64,000 nucleotides of DNA from Amphibalanus amphitrite (lineage: Eukaryota; Arthropoda; Thecostraca; Balanomorpha; Balanidae): positions 837,001 through 901,000 of the forward strand of contig NW_024881587.1 of NCBI RefSeq assembly GCF_019059575.1, in the 5' to 3' direction. Position 1 is the stretch's first letter. Each line of letters starts with the position of its first letter. Of this stretch, positions 9,641-58,445 are shown piece after piece. Below the pieces are notes generated by a model. It made no database searches. It saw only the letters and a program-made list of their open reading frames with translations, and was not told where the DNA came from. Made by a program: the position numbers and the translations under genes.

Positions 9641-10631
9641 GGGAGCTATTCCTGGCGGGCTCCGCCGGGACAAGAAACTGGCGGGGGGGCCGATTCGGCC
9701 CCCCTTCAGATCTCAAAAACTACACCTCGCAGCGACAAACGGTAAACGGCATCGGATACGCACGGTCAAGATCTACAATTTTTACTCAGGTCATTTTCAG
9801 GTCAGGTCAAAGATGACGTCACAGGGGGTCAAAAAAGTCAAAATGGCGGCGCTAGATATGGAGAGAGTTTTTTTCTCGAATAACTTTCGAACTAGTCAAG
9901 ATAGGGACAAACTAAGGGCATCATCGTGATCCTCTCGTCAATCCGCATCGAATGATATATATGTTGACCTCGAAAGGTCAAGGTCAAAGGTTGACCTCAG
10001 GTCACGTGACCTCGAGGTCATCATGTATATCATTCGATGCGTCTTGACGAGCTGAACACAATGAGACCATCCACGCGTCTGTATCTTGCTCCTGTACGGA
10101 GTTATTGGCCAAAAACCTTTGGTGACCTTTGATGACGTCACATGACCTCACAGCTGCCCAACAGCAAAACAGACCTCAAGGTAGTGAAGGTTGATCGTAT
10201 ATGAAGTCATGTATGGTATATGGGGCCATTCCGACCCGTTTTAGTGGTAAAAACAGGGAGTTGATTTTTCCCCCATTGACTTATAATGGGGAGGTCGCGA
10301 AACTGACCTGACCTTAGGTCACCGATATCAAAATTCCGAGATATACAAATTGCACATACTGGTACCCTAACTAAAGCCTGAAGAGAAGAAATTGATCGGT
10401 CAAAAACTCTAGCTCTGGCGTGATTGCAAACTTTTCTGAGGTAGGGTCACCAAAACGCCTCTGGTGACCTGACCTGAGGTCAGATCAACTCAAAATTTTC
10501 AGACATGTTGCGTAGAAGCCTTTTAGGAAAAGTCAGAAAATTTGAGCTTCCTAGCTCAACGCGTTTGGGAGAAATAACCAAAAAACCTCAGGGGGGGGCT
10601 CCTGAGGCCCCCCCGCCAGGAATAGGGTTAA
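9641..10631 (+). mobile_element. TTAA/G-C-hairpin element, second of an abutting pair
   Basis: The left end CTATTCCTGGCGGG (from about 9647) is the inverted complement of the right end CCGCCAGGAATAGGG, which is followed by TTAA at 10628-10631. Left hairpin: G7 (9683-9689) and C6 (9699-9704) around CCGATTCGG. Right hairpin: G8 (10591-10598) and C7 (10608-10614). Bases 9745-10375 are a close direct copy of 57685-58320. The interior includes AGGTCA repeats, TGACGTCA sites and a long palindrome at 9933-10051. The left TTAA has been lost where it meets the preceding element. Confidence 0.65.
9933..10051. repeat. Long imperfect palindrome around AGGTCA repeats
   Basis: Arms CTCGTCAA..GCATCGAATGATATAT and the inverted ATATCATTCGATGC..TTGACGAG enclose TTGACCTCGA, several AGGTCA words and CACGTGACCTCGAGGTCA. 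The same structure recurs at 57873-57988 and in shorter form at 8893-9022. Confidence 0.75.
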
Positions 10632-14972: not shown

Positions 14973-15514
14973 CTGACGAAGAAAGCTTTATGTGCCGATT
15001 TCGCCGACCTTGAAAATCAGTTACAAAGAGTGCTTATCGATCACCCTAGGACCCCGCTCGTCATCTGCGGTGATATAAACTGTGACCTGCTGAAGAAAGA
15101 ACCCAACTTTCGTGCACGACAGCATCTCAGCAGCTTCCTATCGGACTACTCCCTAGACCAGCTAGTAACAACTCCGACTTTCACTTCCGGTTCGCTCCTA
15201 GACGTGTGTATGGTGAACAAAGTGGACCTCTTCTCTAACACCCGTGTTGAGTTTTGTCATTTTAGTCCGCATAAATTTATTAGCGTAGATGTCAATGTCC
15301 CCAAACTGCGTCCGAAGCCCTCAATCATCTCAGCTCGTTCGCTCAACCGTGTTGATGTCACTGCCCTTAATTCTGATCTGGAGCTTGTCGACTGGGAGCC
15401 TGTGTTTACCGCCGCGACTGTTAGTGATCAGTGGGATGCATTCGTGTCCAATTTTTTGCCTATAATCGACGACCACGCCCCACTCAAGCGCATTACCATT
15501 CGGAACCCCACAGG
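14973..15514 (+). pseudogene. LINE ORF2 endonuclease fragment
   Basis: In this frame the peptide begins LTKKALCADFADLENQLQ, then gives PLVICGDINCDLL, the conserved GD-x-N block of APE-type endonucleases, and later SLLDVCMVN. The final catalytic motif, normally S-D-H, reads S-P-H (in HFSPHKF). The N-terminal half of the domain, with its first acidic catalytic residues, is missing through 5' truncation. The frame is lost at a run of five C at 15515-15519. Downstream homology continues in another frame as the reverse-transcriptase ORF. The enzyme would nick target DNA to prime reverse transcription, but this copy is dead for that step. Confidence 0.8.
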
Positions 15515-17443
15515 CCCCCGGCCTCTGCTGCCACACGGAACCTTATGTCCCAGCGCCGCGCCTCGCTACGACTGTCCGGTCGTCAGTCGACAGCTTACAA
15601 GGAGCTGAATCGCTCTGTTCGGGCCGCGCTGCGTCGCGACCGGCGAGAGGAGCTTAAGAGAAATATCTGCGAGCGGGGTCCCAATAAGGTCTGGCAGTCT
15701 ATCAGGACAGTTGTAGCAGGGAAAAAGGACGGTCCTAGTGTGCAGCCTAATTTACCCGCCGATGAACTAAATTCATTTTTCGTCTCTGTCGGACCTCGCA
15801 TCGCTGCGGAGGTCCGGTCTCTTAACACCACTACCGATCTGAACGTTCGCCTCCCCCGGGTCGGTGCTTGTCGTTTCCAGCTCCGCGCGGTCACTCTCGG
15901 CGAACTCGGTCACACTATCTTCGGCATGCGCAACTCAGGCGCCAGTGGGACTGATGGCATTTGCATCCGAATGTTAAAGTCCGGCTTCTCAGCTATCGGT
16001 CGCGTCATACTTTACATTATCAATACGTGTATTACCAACTCCGATATCCCCGATTCCTGGAAACATTCCACAGTCCACCCAATCTTCAAATCTGGCAGCC
16101 CCTCAGATCCCACCAACTTTCGACCAATCTCATTAGTCCCCGTGATTATGAAGGTTGTGGAACGCCTTGTACATCAACAGCTTTACCACTACCTCTCAAA
16201 TAACTATCTCCTTGCCTCCTCGCAGCATGGTTTTCGCCCCCGACACTCCACAGAGACCGCTCTGCTGTCCGTCACAGACCAAATCCTCGCAGCCTCTGAT
16301 AGGGGAGAACTTTCACTGCTGTGTCTCCTTGATTTGAGCAAATGCTTTGATGTCATCGACCACGACCTTCTACTTCAAAAACTGGCTATGCACGGGATCG
16401 AGACCACTTGGTTTTCTGCTTTTCTCACGGGACACACCCAGAGCGTGTCCCTATCTAACGGCGCCGGAGGTAGAGTACTGTCGCGGCCGCTTCCAAATAA
16501 TATGGGCGTCTTCCAAGGATCTGCCCTGGGACCGTTACTCTTCACCATATTTTCGAACAACCTCTCGCTATACGCAGGTGACGCCACCGTTTTCCAATAT
16601 GCGGACGACACCCAGGTTCTAGTGAGCGGCCGTGCCGACGACCTCAGATCGCTTATCTCTCGCATGGAAGCTTCACTCGCATCAATCAGTGACTGGTTCT
16701 GTCTTCACGCCCTCAAGCTAAACGCAAACAAAACTCAACTAATGGTTTTTGGCAGCAGACAAAATTTACGGAAAGTACCCGACTTCAGCGTCTCTCTTCG
16801 TGACTCTGTGTTGCAGCCATGCGAGCAGGTGGGGAATCTGGGTGTTGTCTTTGACAGCGCCCTGTCCTGGGAAGCACATGTGTCCGAGCTTAGTCGTCGG
16901 TGTACTGGCTTGTTGGTCGGACTGTCTCACGCACGAAATTGTCTCCCTGACGGTGTCATTAAAGTCCTCGTTACATCTCTTGTCATATCACGGATCAACT
17001 ACTGCCTCACTGTGTACGGTAACGGGACTCAGAAAAATTTTGACCGACTCCAGAAAATTTTGAACTTTGCCGCTAGAGTGATCTTCGGACGGCGTAAGTT
17101 TGACCACGTCTCGGACCTGCGTGACAGACTTGGCTGGCTATCACCAAAATCCATGTCAGATTACCTGACACTCACAATCGCGCAAAAGGTCATTAAGCAT
17201 GAAGAGCCCGAGAACCTCGCTGCACTGTTCGTCCCCAACCAAAATTTTCGAGACAGGCACACACGGCAGGATCATCTCCTTCATCTTCCCCGACCGAGGC
17301 TTGAAACTGGAAAACGGCGTTTTGAGTACCGTGCCGCGGCGCTATTGAATAGCCTCCCACCCCAGGTAGTGCAGCTGCCACCTGCCAGCTTCGCCCGGTC
17401 TGCCAGGGCCGCGCTGATTAACAAATCCCCGCTACGCTGCTGA
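15515..17443 (+). pseudogene. LINE reverse transcriptase (ORF2 C-terminal part)
   Basis: The open frame, in phase from about 15431 but homologous from about 15515, runs to a TGA at 17441-17443. Reverse-transcriptase blocks appear in order: NFRPISLVPVIMKVVERL, QHGFRPRHSTETALL, the first catalytic aspartate in LLDLSKCFDVIDH, GVFQGSALGPLLF, and the active-site YADD at 16598-16609. These are followed by the LKLNANKTQLMVFG block and a C-terminal region typical of CR1/L2 elements. The catalytic aspartates are intact, so the domain is young or lightly decayed. It is separated from the endonuclease by a single frame change at the C5 run (15515-15519). Length and motif order fit the Jockey-superfamily CR1/L2 group better than RTE or R2. 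Confidence 0.85.
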
Positions 17444-33404: not shown

Positions 33405-33830
33405 TGACTCCTCAGTAGGTAGGAGGCCCTCTGTAGAAAGGAGGCCCTCAGTAGAGAGGAGACCCCCCTGTAGAGAGGAGGCCCCTTTAGAGAGGAGGCC
33501 CTCTGTAGAAAGGAGACCATCTGTAGAGAGGAGGCCCTGTGTAGGGAGGAGGCCCTCTGTGGAAAGGAGACCGCCTGAATGCAGAAGGCCCTCTGAAGAG
33601 AGGAGACCCGCTGTAGAGAGGAGGCCCTCTGAAGAAAGGAGGCCCTCTGTAGAGAAGGGGCCCTCTGAAGAGAGGAGGCCCTTTGCAGAGATGAGGTCCT
33701 CTGGCTCTTTGAAGAGAGAGGCCCTCTGTACCTAAAGGAGGCATTCTGTAGTTAAGAGGCCCTGTGAAAAGAGGAGGCCCGCAGTAGAGATCGGTGGTCC
33801 TCTGTAGAGAGGAGGCCCCATCTGTGTTTT
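33405..33830 (-). repeat. 24-bp minisatellite (GGAGGCCCTCTGTAGAGA type)
   Basis: About 17 drifting units. Because the unit is a multiple of three, the minus strand stays open and would read as an octapeptide repeat of the RGPPLYRG type (ORF 33487-33885). This is a by-product of unit length with no start context or splice support, so I do not call a gene. Confidence 0.7.
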
Positions 33831-34320
33831 GACAAATGTTTTTGCAAATTTTTCGCGGCGCTTCGCGCCGCCGATTCATGTACATACGTACAGGTCAATA
33901 CGAAATCGTGACTGTAATTACATAAACCAACCGTGTCAAATTGAATCAGAATTCATATGTGTACTGTGAAGGAACTCCGGCTTGTACTGTTATGCTAAAA
34001 GAGTGGTAAAATTTGTGTTTTGGAGCTGTGTTTTGACACATTCTTTTGCAAATTTTCTCGGCGCTTCGCGCCGCCGATTCATACACCAACCAATAAGAGA
34101 GATCGTGACATAACACTGACCGTGTCAAATTGAATCGGAATTCATATGTGTACTGTGAAGTAACTCCGGCTTGTACTAGCATGCTAAAAGGGTTGTAATA
34201 TTTGTGTTTTAGAGCTGTGTTTTGACAACTTTTTTGTATTTTTTTTGCGGCGCTTCGCGCCGCCGATTCATACACAGGTCAATAAGAGAGATCGTGACTG
34301 TATGCTACTAATGCATTAGG
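33828..34320. repeat. Tandem array, about 190-200-bp units with a GC hairpin
   Basis: There are 2.6 copies, each starting near TGTGTTTTGACA, then GGCGCTTCGCGCCGCCGATT (at about 33857, 34060 and 34249), then AATTGAATC.GAATTCATATG and CTCCGGCTTGTACT. GGCGC-TTC-GCGCC forms a tight hairpin in each unit. Spacings are 203 and 189 bases. Confidence 0.8.
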
Positions 34321-36298: not shown

Positions 36299-36306
36299 AA
36301 GGAATC

Positions 36307-37020
36307 GGGGGACCATCAAAGCGTCCAAAACCGCAGCATCCAAGGTACGCAACATCCAAAACCGCAGCGTCCAAAGTACGCAACGTCCAAAATACGTCCA
36401 AAATCGGGTATATAGGGAGCATTCACAACGTCCAAAACCGAAACATCCAAAACCGCAACATCCAAAACGTATCATCCAAAAACGCAACATCCAAGGACGC
36501 ATCATCCAAAGTACGCAACATCCAAAGTACGCAACATCCAAAGTACGCAACATCCAAAACCGTTAGGTTAGGATAGGTTAGGCTAGGTTAGGTTAGGTTA
36601 GGTTTTCTTATCCCCGGTAGGCATAAATCAGTAGGTTAGGTTAGGTTAGGTTAGGTTAGGTTAGGTTAGGTTGGGTTTCCTTATCCCCGGTAGGCAAAAA
36701 TCAGTAGGTTAGGTTAGGTTAGGTTAGGTTGGGTTAGGGATAGGCAAAAATCAGTAGGTTAGGTTAGGTTAGGTTAGGTTAGGTTAGGTTAGGTTGGTTT
36801 TGGATGTTGCGTGCCTTGGATGTCGTGGTCTTGGACGTTGTGGTTTTGGAGATTACGTACTTTGGATGTTGCGTTTTTGGATGTTTCGGTTTTGGACTTT
36901 GTGAATGCCCCCTATAAACCCGATTTTGGACGTATTTTGGACGTTGCGTACTTTGGACGCTGCGGTTTTGGATGTTGCGTACTTTGGATGCTGCGGTTCT
37001 GGACGCTTTGATACGGACCC
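36307..37020. mobile_element. Foldback element with (TTAGG)n core, copy 1
   Basis: A perfect 8-bp target duplication, AAGGAATC, lies at 36299-36306 and 37021-37028. The 714-bp element begins GGGGGACCATCAAAGCG and ends, read inward, GGGTCCGTATCAAAGCG. The arms (about 36307-36562 and 36785-37020) are inverted copies of each other, built from 15-16-base units (CATCCAAAGTACGCAA, CATCCAAAACCGCAG). The centre is arthropod-telomere-like TTAGG repeats in blocks separated by a spacer containing TATCCCCGGTAGGC. There is no coding capacity. The 8-bp duplication and long modular inverted arms fit foldback/hAT-like DNA elements. The TTAGG core is the odd part. Confidence 0.88.
36563..36797 (+). repeat. 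Interstitial (TTAGG)n blocks
   Basis: Several blocks of exact TTAGG pentamers are interrupted by three spacers (near 36603, 36669 and 36740). The spacers carry TCCTTATCCCCGGTAGGC and AAATCAGTA or shortened forms. Confidence 0.95.
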
Positions 37021-37028
37021 AAGGAATC

Positions 37029-41938: not shown

Positions 41939-42041
41939 TGAATGATATGCAAATGAAATTCAAGTACACATTTTCCAAGTTCTACTTTATATTCTGAATC
42001 ATCCGCAGTTTCCCGTTCTCGTCACACTCATTTAATTAACA
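41939..42041 (-). repeat. 3' LTR (103 bp)
   Basis: Identical to 44719-44821. The identity also covers 42042-42047, inside the element. No polypurine tract precedes it. Confidence 0.85.
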
Positions 42042-42769
42042 CTTGTGGGTCAAGAGTCTCGTCCCAGTAAAACTTGCTGTTGCCTTTAGTTTTGAGCAGT
42101 TCTCTGAAGGGTGACATGACCTCAGACTGGGCAAACGCGTAGGAGACTTGGTTAACCAGCCCGAACCAGCTTCTGACTCCTGTGAGGTTGGATGGCGTCG
42201 GAAAGTTACGGATGGCGTCGAGAAGCCGTCCCGCTGGTTTGTACCCGTCAGCAGTGACTGTGAAACCAGCGAAGTCAACGGTGTCCGCCCCGAAAGAGAA
42301 TTTAGAAGGGTTGAACACGACGCCGTGTTCCCCACAGAGCGTGATGTAGTGCACGGTGTGCCAAAAGGCCTCCTCCAGTGATCCGTCCCAGAGCAAAGAG
42401 TCGTCGACACACCTTCTAAGACGCTCCGTCCCTGCAGTGATGTCATCCATGCGGCGTGTATAGCCGTCACCGGAGGCGTGAAATCCCTGAGGTGCGCGCT
42501 TGTAGCGATACCTTCCCCACTCAGTTATGAAGGTTGTCGCTTCTCTCGCGTTCTCGGCCAGTGATAGGCTATGGTAGCCATTCCATGCGTCCAGGGTAGT
42601 CTTCTTTGTCCCGGGTGGCACGCTAGCGACGAGATTGAAGGGACTGGGCGTATGGTGAGTCTCTCGGAGGGTGGCCTCGTTCACCCGCTGGAGGTCTACT
42701 GTCCGACGAGGAGAGCCATCCTTTTTCGCTGCGACCACCATCCTCGAACACCACTCAGCGTGTCGGGGT
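42042..42769 (-). pseudogene. LTR-element reverse transcriptase, truncated
   Basis: This continues Pol after a frame change at about 42755-42770. RT blocks in order are MVVAAKKDGSPRRTVDL, LDAWNGYHSL, RAPQGFHASGDGY, the active site CVDD (residues 127-130 of the 253-codon frame) and VDFAGFTV. Gypsy-type RTs usually read Y/F-V/I-DD, so C in the first position is a variant, with both aspartates kept. The frame ends at 42028, having run a few codons into the LTR. The RNase H tether and domain and the integrase are absent, so the copy cannot be autonomous. Confidence 0.85.
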
Positions 42770-44758
42770 TCCCTGTGGCACCGGCTCAATTATGCCAAGA
42801 CGTACGTCTTGGTCCAGACCGGCCTTTACCTGTCTTTTCCAGTGGTGGGGGACTGGAATGGGCGTATGAACAGCCGTCGGTGTTGCATCGGCCTTGAACT
42901 GGATATCTAGTGGTGTGCCCGTCATCTCCTGGAGTGGCTGGTGCTCGCAGGTATTGAATGCGCTGCTGGCAAAATGGTCTCTGATCCAGTGCTCTAACTT
43001 CTCCCTGTTTTCCTCGACGGCTGGAAGCGGCATCTTCTCCGGGATCGCGGGCACTGGTGACCTCTTCAGACACCCACAGGGCGCTGTGTGGGTCTGTGCT
43101 TTGTTGACCTCATCTGGGTCTGTGCGCTGGGACGTAACCTTAGATCCGTCCGGTCCGTTTTCGGGCAAAGGGAAGTGTTCCGGCACGACTCCCAGGTCTC
43201 TGAGGGCCCTTTCAGATAAATAGAGGCCGTGCGTGTTGCGCGAGATGTACACTACTTGTCTAGTGACTCGTCCTTTGGCCTCAATCCTCAGCAGAAGTGA
43301 GCCTATCACCTCCAATCGTGTGCCCGTTACGCCAATGATGCGGTGTGAGGTCTTCAGGAGAAGGTGTTCCGGACAGCGCAGGAGTTTCAAAATCTCCATC
43401 CCCCCAGAGCAGGTCATGGCTCCAGTGTCAGCGCACGCTGTGGCGCGCACGCCGTGGTCGACTTTACTGCGCTCGATCCCTGTGAGACGCTTCCCGAATC
43501 TGGAATGGGCTTCCTGCATGATGGTGAGCGTGACTGGAAGTTCTGGATGGCGTTTTGGCTGGCAAGTCGTGAACTGACCATCTTTCCACTCCATGTGAGA
43601 CACTGATTGTGCACTGCTTTGGGAGACTGTAGATCTGGCAGTAGTGCTAGACGGCAGGGCGCTGGCTGACTGAGCCGGTCCGGAGACGTTAGCGTGCGCT
43701 GATATCTCATCCATACCGTCTCCGAACGCGTCCAGGGACGACTCAGCGCTTGCACTCACTGGCTGGGCAGCCCGACATGCACGAGCGAAGTGATTTCGCT
43801 TCTGACAATTTGTGCAAGTCTTACCACGTGCTGGGCAGGATGAGTGCTGGTACTTGTTGCCGGACGTCCTGTGCCGCCCTCCGCACCAGCGACACGGACT
43901 GAGCTCCTCCTGGCTGTCAGCATTGGGCGGCTTGTCAGGTTTGTGTCGCTGCTGTTGATATGCAGAGCGATGAGCCGCCGCAATATCTGGTGCTGCCTGT
44001 CTGCTGGTCGGCAACACGCCCGTCTGAAGCTGCTTCTCGCTATCGTCGGCAGCCTGCATCGTGAGAAGGGCCTGGAATTTCTGTGCGAATGTCGGATACC
44101 GATCGGCTGCCGACAGAATTTGGCTTTGATGCTCTGGGTTGTAAAGACCGACAACCATCTGCGTCTGTAGCACGTCCTCCTCGTAACTGATCGGGCCGGG
44201 CTCGGTGCTTTCTGCGTGAGGTCTATGCGCAGTTACTGAGAAGTCGCAGAGAGCGGCTTTGGAACGTAGCCGCGCTACGAAATGCGTGATATCCTCACCT
44301 TGGGCCTGTCGAAGTGCGTGGAACTGGCTCCGATGAACCGCAGTATGCAGGCCACGAACTGCCACCGCCTTTATCTGAGAGAGAAGATCGGCCTCATTCG
44401 ACTGACTTAGAGTGGTTCCTCGCAAGTGGAACAACTGTCTTTCCAACTCCGGGCTGCATGCCGATAGGAGCTCGTGTCTGATGGCTTCCTCTCTAACAAG
44501 TCCAGCGACTGTCTTGTATCTTTCCCATTGAAAGAGAAACAATCTCCAGTCTTCGTCACTGGCATCCAAGGCTACCGTCGGGCGGCATGCCCGTGGTGTT
44601 GCTGTCGAGTTTTCTCTCGTCAGGAGAGCACGAAACTGCAGTTCGGTGAGAGTAATTAGAACAGGATTCTGTGTGTTTTGTGGTGGGTTCATTTCATTTT
44701 CTTCCACCGACCGCGCCATGAATGATATGCAAATGAAATTCAAGTACACATTTTCCAA
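42770..44758 (-). CDS. Gag-protease-RT N-terminus polyprotein of the LTR element
   Basis: The open frame is 667 codons, ending at 42755. Its first ATG lies inside the LTR, so the true start is more likely the later ATG giving MNPPQNTQ (about residue 23). Gag includes ALDASDEDWRLFLFQWERYK (around 63-82). Two zinc-binding clusters follow: an irregular one at about 289-308 and a canonical CX2CX4HX4C knuckle at 315-328. The aspartic protease signature ADTGA sits at 443-447. The RT N-terminal lead (FKADATP..VPHHWK) is near the end. Gag would form the particle and bind RNA, and the protease would cleave the polyprotein. The frame breaks near 42755-42770, and RT homology continues in another frame. 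Confidence 0.85.
44701..44718 (-). promoter_or_regulatory. Putative primer-binding site
   Basis: The first bases after the LTR on the minus strand are TGGCGCGGTCGGTGG. They start with TGG, complementary to the CCA end of a tRNA, and begin exactly at the LTR boundary. The specific tRNA is not assigned. Confidence 0.6.
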
Positions 44759-44821
44759 GTTCTACTTTATATTCTGAATCATCCGCAGTTTCCCGTTCTC
44801 GTCACACTCATTTAATTAACA
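44719..44821 (-). repeat. 5' LTR (103 bp, TG..CA)
   Basis: On the minus strand it begins TGTTAATTAAATGAG and ends CATATCATTCA. The match to the other LTR continues 6 bases beyond the TG end (to 44827), giving 109 identical bases in all. Confidence 0.85.
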
Positions 44822-44827
44822 CTTGTG

Positions 44828-53840: not shown

Positions 53841-53848
53841 GTTTTTTT

Positions 53849-54629
53849 GGGGGACCATCAAAGCGTCCAAAACCGCAGCATCCAAAGTACGCAACATCCA
53901 AAACCGCAGCGTCCAAAGTACGCAACGTCCAAAATACGTCCAAAATCGGGTATATAGGGAGCATTCACAACGTCCAAAACCAAAACATCCAAAACCGCAA
54001 CATCCAAAACGTATCATCCAAGGACGCATCATCCAAAGTACGCAACATCCAAAATACGCAACATCCAAAGTACGCAACATCCAAAGTACGCAACATCCAA
54101 AACCGTTTGGTTAGGTTAGGTTAGGCTAGGTTAGGTTAGGTTAGGTTTGGTTAGGTTTCCTTATCCCCGGTAGGCATAAATCAGTAGGTTAGGTTAGGTT
54201 AGGTTAGGTTAGGTTAGGTTAGGTTAGGTTTCCTTATCCCCGGTAGGCAAAAATCAGTAGGTTAGGTTAGGTTAGGTTAGGTTAGGTTAGGTTAGGGATT
54301 GGCAAAAATCAGTAGGTTAGGTTAGGTTAGGTTAGGTTATGTTAGGTTAGGTTAGGTTGGTTTTGGATGCTGCGTGCCTTGGATGTCGTGGTCTTGGACG
54401 TTGTGGTTTTGGAGGTTACGTACTTTGGATGTTACGTCTTTGGATGTTGCGTTTTTTGGATGATACGTTTTTGGACGTTGCGGTTTTGGATGTTTCGGTT
54501 TTGGACTTTGTGAATGCCCCCTATGAACCCGATTTTGGACGTATTTTGGACGTTGCGTACTTTGGACGCTGCGGTTTTGGATGTTGCGTACTTTGGGTGC
54601 TGCGGTTTTGGACGCTTTGATACGGACCC
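53849..54629. mobile_element. Foldback element with (TTAGG)n core, copy 2
   Basis: A perfect 8-bp target duplication, GTTTTTTT, lies at 53841-53848 and 54630-54637. Termini and arms match copy 1 (36307-37020): GGGGGACCATCAAAGCG at the left, GGGTCCGTATCAAAGCG read inward from the right. The 15-16-base unit arms and the same orientation of the TTAGG core are also shared. Its 781-bp length differs from copy 1 mainly in TTAGG block lengths and in the number of arm units. Confidence 0.88.
54111..54358 (+). repeat. Interstitial (TTAGG)n blocks
   Basis: Exact TTAGG pentamer blocks are separated by the same spacers as in copy 1 (TATCCCCGGTAGGC near 54164 and 54236; a short GGGATTGGCAAAAATCAGTA near 54294). 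Confidence 0.95.
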
Positions 54630-54637
54630 GTTTTTTT

Positions 54638-57679: not shown

Positions 57680-58445
57680 TGGACAAATAACGGCATCGGA
57701 TATGCACGGACAAGGTCTACAATTTTCAACAAGGTCATTTTCAGGTCAGGTCAATGATGACGTCACAGGGGGGTCAAAAAAGTCAAAATGGCGGCGCTAG
57801 ATATGGAGTTTTTCTCGAATAAGTTTCGAATTAGTCAAGATAGGAACAAATTAAGGGCATCATCGTGATCCTCTCGTCAATCCGCATCGAATGATGTATG
57901 TTGACCTCGAAAGGTCAAGGTCAAAGGTTGACCTCAGGTCACGTGACCTCGAGGTCATCATGTATATCATTCGATGCGTCTTGACGAGCTGAACACCATG
58001 AGGCCATCCGCGCGGCTGTATCTTGTTCCTGTACGGAGTTATTGGCGAAAAACCTTTGGTGACCTTTGATGACGTCACATGACCTTACAGCTGCCCAACA
58101 GCAAAACAGACCTCAAAGTAGTGAAGTTTGATCGTATATGAAGTCATGTATGTTATATGGGACCATTCCGACCCGTTTTAGTGGTAAAAACCGTTTTAGT
58201 GGTTGATTTTCCCCCATTGACTTATAACGGGGAGGTCGAGAAATTGACCTGACCTTAGGTCACCGATATCAAAATTGCGAGATATACAAATTGTAGCTAC
58301 TGATGACCTTATAACATCCTGCGACTTTCAAAGGCCTCCACATCTACACTAGCTCTGGCACGGTGACAGTTGTAAAAAAGTGACTTGAGGTTGGGTCATT
58401 CAAAGTGGCCTGGTGACCTGACCTTAAAAGTTAGGAGGTTCAAAC
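57680..58445 (+). mobile_element. TTAA-family body, copy of 9745-10500
   Basis: This is a close direct copy of the interior of the element at 9641-10631. It includes ACGGCATCGGATA, GGTCAAAAAAGTCAAAATGG, the 116-base palindrome (57873-57988), GTACGGAGTTATTGG and the TGACGTCACATGACC block. Terminal hairpins and TTAA ends of this subfamily are not seen here, so it is a truncated copy. It lies directly left of the complete element at 58514. Confidence 0.75.

Follow-up and report, generated by a model that had tools for sequence, protein, structure and literature searches.

The element and its surroundings

The window, i.e., the whole analysed stretch of 64,000 nucleotides of Amphibalanus amphitrite DNA, contains two copies of a foldback element, each with a core of TTAGG repeats enclosed by inverted arms. 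Their features, in window coordinates, are:

36299-36306, no strand: left target-site duplication of copy 1, AAGGAATC
36307-37020: foldback element copy 1 (contig C90), 5' end GGGGGACCATCAAAGCG at 36307, 3' end CGCTTTGATACGGACCC ending at 37020
36307-36562, + strand: 5' arm of copy 1, terminal GGGGGACCATCAAAGCG followed by tandem 15-16-bp units of the TCCAAAACCGCAACA / TCCAAAGTACGCAACA type
36563-36793, + strand: core of copy 1, TTAGG blocks alternating with the spacer CTTATCCCCGGTAGGCAWAAATCAG
36794-37020, + strand: 3' arm of copy 1, the 5' arm inverted, with the terminus CGCTTTGATACGGACCC
37021-37028, no strand: right target-site duplication of copy 1, AAGGAATC
53841-53848, no strand: left target-site duplication of copy 2, GTTTTTTT
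53849-54629, + strand: copy 2 of the element, 781 bp, core at about 54106-54356
54630-54637, no strand: right target-site duplication of copy 2, GTTTTTTT

The initial annotation had described a foldback at 36307-37020 with inverted arms of 15-16-base units and exact TTAGG blocks in its core. The arms and boundaries are exact to the base, and the blocks were confirmed, recurring together with the spacer at a 73-bp period. The perfect 8-bp duplication it also reported is present at both window copies but does not hold for the family, in which the length is 8-10 bp. The outer arms of copy 1 pair over 152 nt with 96% complementarity. Outside this inverted part the terminal motifs are asymmetric, GGGGGACC at one end versus GGGTCCGT at the other, each preceding the common ATCAAAGCG. 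The sequence TTAGGTTAGG has 40 matches in the window, compared with 0.14 expected by chance, and all 40 fall within copy 1 or copy 2. Gaps aside, copies 1 and 2 agree at 97.2% of positions; their flanks are dissimilar. An Rfam search of the window gave zero matches.

Other repeats were also observed in the window. Remains of a non-LTR retrotransposon, with endonuclease and reverse transcriptase matches, lie at 14973-17440, and retroelement-like frames (a reverse transcriptase match and a weak zinc-knuckle match) at 41939-44827 are flanked by identical 109-bp direct repeats. The interval 33410-34298 holds an 18-bp minisatellite of 22 copies and, after it, a tandem duplication of 189 bp that contains a GCGGCGCTTCGCGCCGC palindrome. 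A pair of dispersed repeats (9745-10380 and 57689-58321) consists of blocks 87-100% identical, including a 298-nt block at 96%; one block contains AGGTCA motifs.

Genome-wide copies and target-site duplications

The assembly examined comprises 807.55 Mb in 2,644 contigs. The exact 5' end occurs in it 151 times and the exact 3' end 148 times, and the reversed-pattern controls gave 0. For 100 of the 151 exact 5' ends the downstream sequence was examined, and a 3' end with up to 4 mismatches was paired with the 5' end when located no more than 2.6 kb away. Such a partner was found for 80 of the 100; of the remaining 20, 13 were covered for only 1.5-1.7 kb downstream. Some of the 100 ends, those of long elements included, have no TTAGG in their first 900 bases.

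The copy count and the search for duplications that the initial annotation had suggested gave a clear result: 64 of the 80 paired copies are flanked by perfect target-site duplications, and 2 more by duplications with one mismatch. The chance of such a duplication is about 8e-5 per candidate 3' end. The perfect ones measure 8 bp (30 copies), 9 bp (31) or 10 bp (3). It had been proposed that segmental duplication would be the better explanation should other copies lack duplications or have extended flanks in common. The 66 duplications with at most one mismatch represent 65 distinct sequences, GTTAGGTT alone being found twice. These target-site duplications, together with the dissimilar flanks, rule out segmental duplication.

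A good duplication is missing in 14 of the 80 paired copies, 5 of which sit in one rearranged cluster (C172:879500-885500, L054), where five exact 5' ends lie within about 2.8 kb, the flanks are repeated and none is properly duplicated. At C169:545780-551050 (L052, L091) a foldback copy is split inside its TTAGG core by a foreign insertion of several kb, and the 9-bp duplication GGCCCACCC encloses the entire copy. Nesting within the family was also observed: 9 of the 66 duplicated copies are inserted within another family copy, on contigs C26, C91, C133, C179 (three), C221 and C397 (two). The two copies with the duplication GTTAGGTT, which resembles a TTAGG core, are among them. If the family is taken as the 151 exact-ended copies only, about 0.01 nested copies are expected, and self-nesting is up to roughly a thousand-fold above the share of these copies. 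On viral contigs there is a lone exact 17-mer match (L001); the DNA around it has no arms and resembles phage coding sequence on visual inspection, and the match was attributed to chance.

Uniformity of the short copies

The simple copies are 59 of the 66 duplicated ones, with 7 copies longer than 1 kb excluded; 5 of these 7 hold a further exact 5' end. Simple copies are 591-962 bp long (median 771). All 59 contain TTAGG, with 13-56 units (median 27), and CCTAA is present at most once. The 5' junction of the core, CAAAACCG|TTAGG, is found in 48 of 59 simple copies and the 3' junction, TTAGG|TTGGTTTTGG, in 52 of 59, and the exact arm/core junction occurs 112 times in the genome. The near-constant orientation of TTAGG and the near-constant junctions point to a single capture followed by amplification; most likely, the core entered the element once, and the resulting chimera was multiplied by transposition. 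Compared with their consensus, the 5' arms of the 59 simple copies show a mean divergence of 0.75%, and 19 of these arms match it without a difference. This low divergence suggests that the family was recently active. The reading in the initial annotation, that TTAGG lies inside a transposable unit, is supported by the 64 of 80 perfect duplications.

Long relatives and a candidate transposase

Starting from two TTAGG-free loci that have the 5' end of the short element, an internal sequence was identified that is present at 8 places, for the most part in inverted pairs. Two long elements could be delimited:

C667, 259615-274291: long element, 14.7 kb, duplication CTCGCGCT on either side
C20, 144687-179527: long element, 34.8 kb, duplication CCCCTGGG, right end with one mismatch

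As in the short element, each has one GGGGGACC-type end and one GGGTCCGT-type end. The C20 element holds other insertions, so that its 34.8 kb is not all original length. The 5' arm of copy 1 and the first 256 bp of the C20 long terminal repeat are 95.7% identical. The outer 160 bp of the short 5' arms (n=59) show a mean identity of 98.8% to the long A-type ends and 97.4% to the B-type ends. The short 3' arms are 95.2% identical to A-type and B-type ends alike, so a simple internal deletion is not proven as the origin of the short form.

A search for a partner transposase, also proposed in the initial annotation, yielded a likely candidate in the C20 element and none listed for C667. Inside the C20 element, at C20:166776-167069, lies a match to the MULE transposase domain PF10551 (E 7.1e-12), in a 314-aa open frame, identified by profile position and score. 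A second PF10551 match, C85:447644-447940, lies some 13.7 kb inward of another long-type end. Genome-wide there are at least 111 MULE matches (150 of 204 candidates scored), with about 0.005 expected per 34.8 kb. None of the 111 listed falls in the C667 element, and a 1.5-kb segment of its central part contains only short open frames, the longest of 93 aa. Since C20 carries other insertions, its MULE could itself be a nested foreign one. None of 149 listed matches to the hAT dimerisation domain (150 of 554 candidates scored) falls inside the C20 element, and none of the 10 genome matches to the KDZ transposase (PF18758) is located within the long elements. Open reading frames at L032:3679-5242 were considered as a partner gene and rejected; they sit in a 3.8-kb insertion missing from the C108 and C85 copies, and a comparison with Pfam gave no transposase match. 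The locus C85:351767-461631 is complex: in addition to a 47-bp A-type end fragment joined to a B-type end, it contains an A-side copy that is truncated and, far away, an inverted B end, and the outer flanks are mismatched.

Comparison with known foldback elements

The closest parallels are described in the accessible parts of the papers cited here. Tm1, a Mutator/Foldback element of root-knot nematodes, also has asymmetric terminal motifs at its two ends, terminal repeats of short tandem units (13-15 bp, compared with 15-16 bp here), duplications in the same length range (8-10 bp in 45 of 53) and members that are MITE-like, carry cargo or encode a transposase (PMC3169594). It differs in the sequences of its units and termini and in that 9 bp is its most common duplication length; among the cargo described for it are a histone hairpin motif and a gene, but no telomere repeats (PMC3169594). 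The barnacle family resembles Tm1 in its 8-10-bp duplications, long inverted arms of short tandem units and asymmetric termini, and in having a member with a MULE domain (PF10551 in C20, by profile position and score). Tetris of Drosophila virilis, assigned to Mutator by its authors, is likewise a foldback with tandem repeats in long TIRs, 8-10-bp duplications and a variable middle (PMC4079207). Unlike the present family, its repeats are of about 220 bp and seeded a satellite, no transposase-encoding copy was found, and telomere repeats are not described in the accessible text (PMC4079207, where sea-urchin foldback work is also cited). Muta1, an active MULE of Aedes aegypti, produces the same mix of 8- or 9-bp duplications; it encodes a transposase and, in the part of the source available, is not described as a cargo foldback (PMC5225508).

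The transport of foreign sequence between transposon ends, amplified by transposition, is known from Pack-MULEs and animal Pack-TIRs, in which the cargo is gene sequence and not, as here, a telomere repeat with a spacer (PMC8277862; PMC6431247). One feature of Pack-MULEs and Pack-TIRs was found here, namely the presence of the captured sequence also outside the transposon (the motif at 6 of 6 sampled outside sites; 549 genome-wide matches of the element-type module, some of them in arrays away from listed element ends). Another was not, as the core is a telomere repeat plus spacer and apparently no fragment of a host gene. Captured cargo has been described before in animal foldbacks, namely in Tm1 (PMC3169594) and in Ssk-FB4 of Drosophila, where the TIR element FB4 took up a gene (PMC8277862). 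The accessible text of the same literature reports no Pack-MULE in a survey of 100 animal reference genomes (PMC8277862; PMC6431247).

The sea urchin TU elements are modular foldbacks with arms of ~15-bp units and 8-bp duplications, and their middle segments are present at other genomic sites as well. We know of no TU element with a telomere-repeat middle.

TTAGG outside the element and the origin of the core

The initial annotation had proposed that transposition could scatter telomere-like DNA through the genome. The element does carry and plant TTAGG, but most interstitial TTAGG is located outside it. The pattern TTAGGx6 has 9,894 matches genome-wide (5 for the reversed control) and a mean of 4.9 per simple copy; multiplied by 151 copies, this means that the element explains roughly 7-8% of the matches. 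When TTAGG sites were mapped against the element, 15 clusters were counted by eye among the matches listed on C1-C3. One of them lies in a foldback, an exact-ended copy, 10 adjoin a related module outside the element (6 its first motif form, 4 its second), and 4 are unassigned. As related modules are present outside it, the element appears to account for a minority of interstitial TTAGG and not to be its main source, and it most likely borrowed a module widespread in its own right. Module arrays were located by match positions on stretches with no listed exact element end, e.g., C11:1101760-1102210.

Two outward-facing pairs of module sites were also observed. At C2:1436770-1437974 the modules are 1.1 kb apart, with a TTAGG run on each side (CCTAA...TTAGG), like a capped linear piece; at C26:180691-183672 they are 3 kb apart. 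Runs of at least 40 TTAGG units gave 1,680 matches of the 200-base pattern. Among the matches listed, such long runs are confined to C55 and C140, within about 5-11 kb of the contig ends, and their G strand faces outward, an arrangement that fits TTAGG telomeres in the host.

Candidates for the origin of the module are a retroelement tail, another transposon or telomerase RNA. The first assumes that the 3' tail of a retroelement, with a SINE/LINE-like body, the motif GTAGGCAAAxATCA and (TTAGG)n, was captured in an early foldback copy, which is compatible with a Mutator foldback and concerns only the source of the core. Six non-element sites were sampled from the 14 such clusters listed, and in all six the motif precedes the TTAGG run by no more than a few bases. 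Its exact forms occur 134 and 77 times in the genome, and sites L102, L103 and L106 have a common upstream body and differing downstream flanks. However, L101, L104 and L105 have both flanks in common, which a tail does not predict, and the comparison rests on reads of 151-201 bp per site; this origin is possible but somewhat doubtful. The other proposal assumes a reverse-transcribed piece of telomerase RNA with attached TTAGG, an invertebrate counterpart of the vertebrate TERC-ITS, in which telomere repeats adjoin a telomerase RNA copy (PMC8537989), captured and spread by the Mutator foldback. The module motif lies upstream of the repeats, on the same side as in 36 of 41 vertebrate TERC-ITS in the accessible part of that report (PMC8537989). 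Four folds of the module strand gave z-scores of 0.1 to 2.2, no stabler than shuffled sequences, and lend no support to telomerase RNA; this origin is improbable.

Mechanism and alternative explanations

The family is mobile, its insertions are flanked by duplications, its short and long forms have ends in common, its core junctions are near-constant, and a related module is present elsewhere in the genome. The explanation that we favour, with a probability of about 0.85, is a non-autonomous Mutator-like foldback transposon, mobilised by a MULE through longer relatives, with a captured TTAGG module. The assignment to Mutator/Foldback follows from the agreement of structure, duplication length and transposase domain. 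In the proposed mechanism, rare and much longer relatives with the same ends would supply the Mutator (MULE) transposase, which would recognise the terminal repeats, move the element and leave an 8-10-bp duplication. Of each long terminal repeat, the short form would retain the first ~250 bp; its middle would be a module of (TTAGG)n and spacer captured essentially once, and the arm/TTAGG chimera would then multiply by transposition. The MULE gene of the long element is probably the active source, acting in trans, and the short form probably goes back to a long element that underwent deletion and capture. The movement is presumed to follow cut-and-paste chemistry, and the capture of the core was probably a one-time event.

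An assignment to another superfamily was considered. The hAT and P superfamilies have a strict 8-bp target-site duplication. Both window copies and 30 of the 64 perfect duplications are exactly 8 bp, so the element could be a hAT or P foldback if the 9-10-bp duplications reflect ambiguous boundaries. Measured against a strict 8 bp, this assignment fails on the duplication lengths, 34 of the 64 being longer (9 bp in 31 copies, 10 bp in 3). The long element carries a MULE domain, and none of the 149 listed hAT matches (150 of 554 candidates scored) lies in it. The assignment is very unlikely. The arrays could also be primary scars of break repair or fusion, around which foldback arms grew or beside which they inserted. 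Interstitial TTAGG is common and mostly outside the element. However, identical junctions bound the array in the 48 and 52 of 59 copies given above, and the duplications flank the entire unit, arms included. For the element the scar explanation is contradicted and hardly credible; for the module outside the element it may still apply.

Significance

Telomere repeats in chromosome interiors are commonly taken for traces of a past chromosome fusion or of break repair. A literature search, mostly of titles and abstract openings and with few subscription papers, found no DNA transposon with a telomere-repeat core. With this family there is a further animal example of a Mutator foldback that carries foreign cargo, Tm1 being an earlier one (PMC3169594). 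Its long relatives, of 14.7 and 34.8 kb (C20 being swollen by insertions), exceed 7 kb, the maximum that a review of giant transposons gives for the Pack-MULEs reported first (PMC6431247). Should the telomerase RNA origin be true, the core would be a by-product of telomerase made mobile, and, as its G strand always has the same direction, breakage within it would provide the left-hand fragment with a seed for a telomere. In this genome a DNA transposon family carries and plants TTAGG in a fixed strand direction, and related modules accompany further sites. Interstitial TTAGG here is therefore no evidence of chromosome fusion unless it has been checked for transposon ends.
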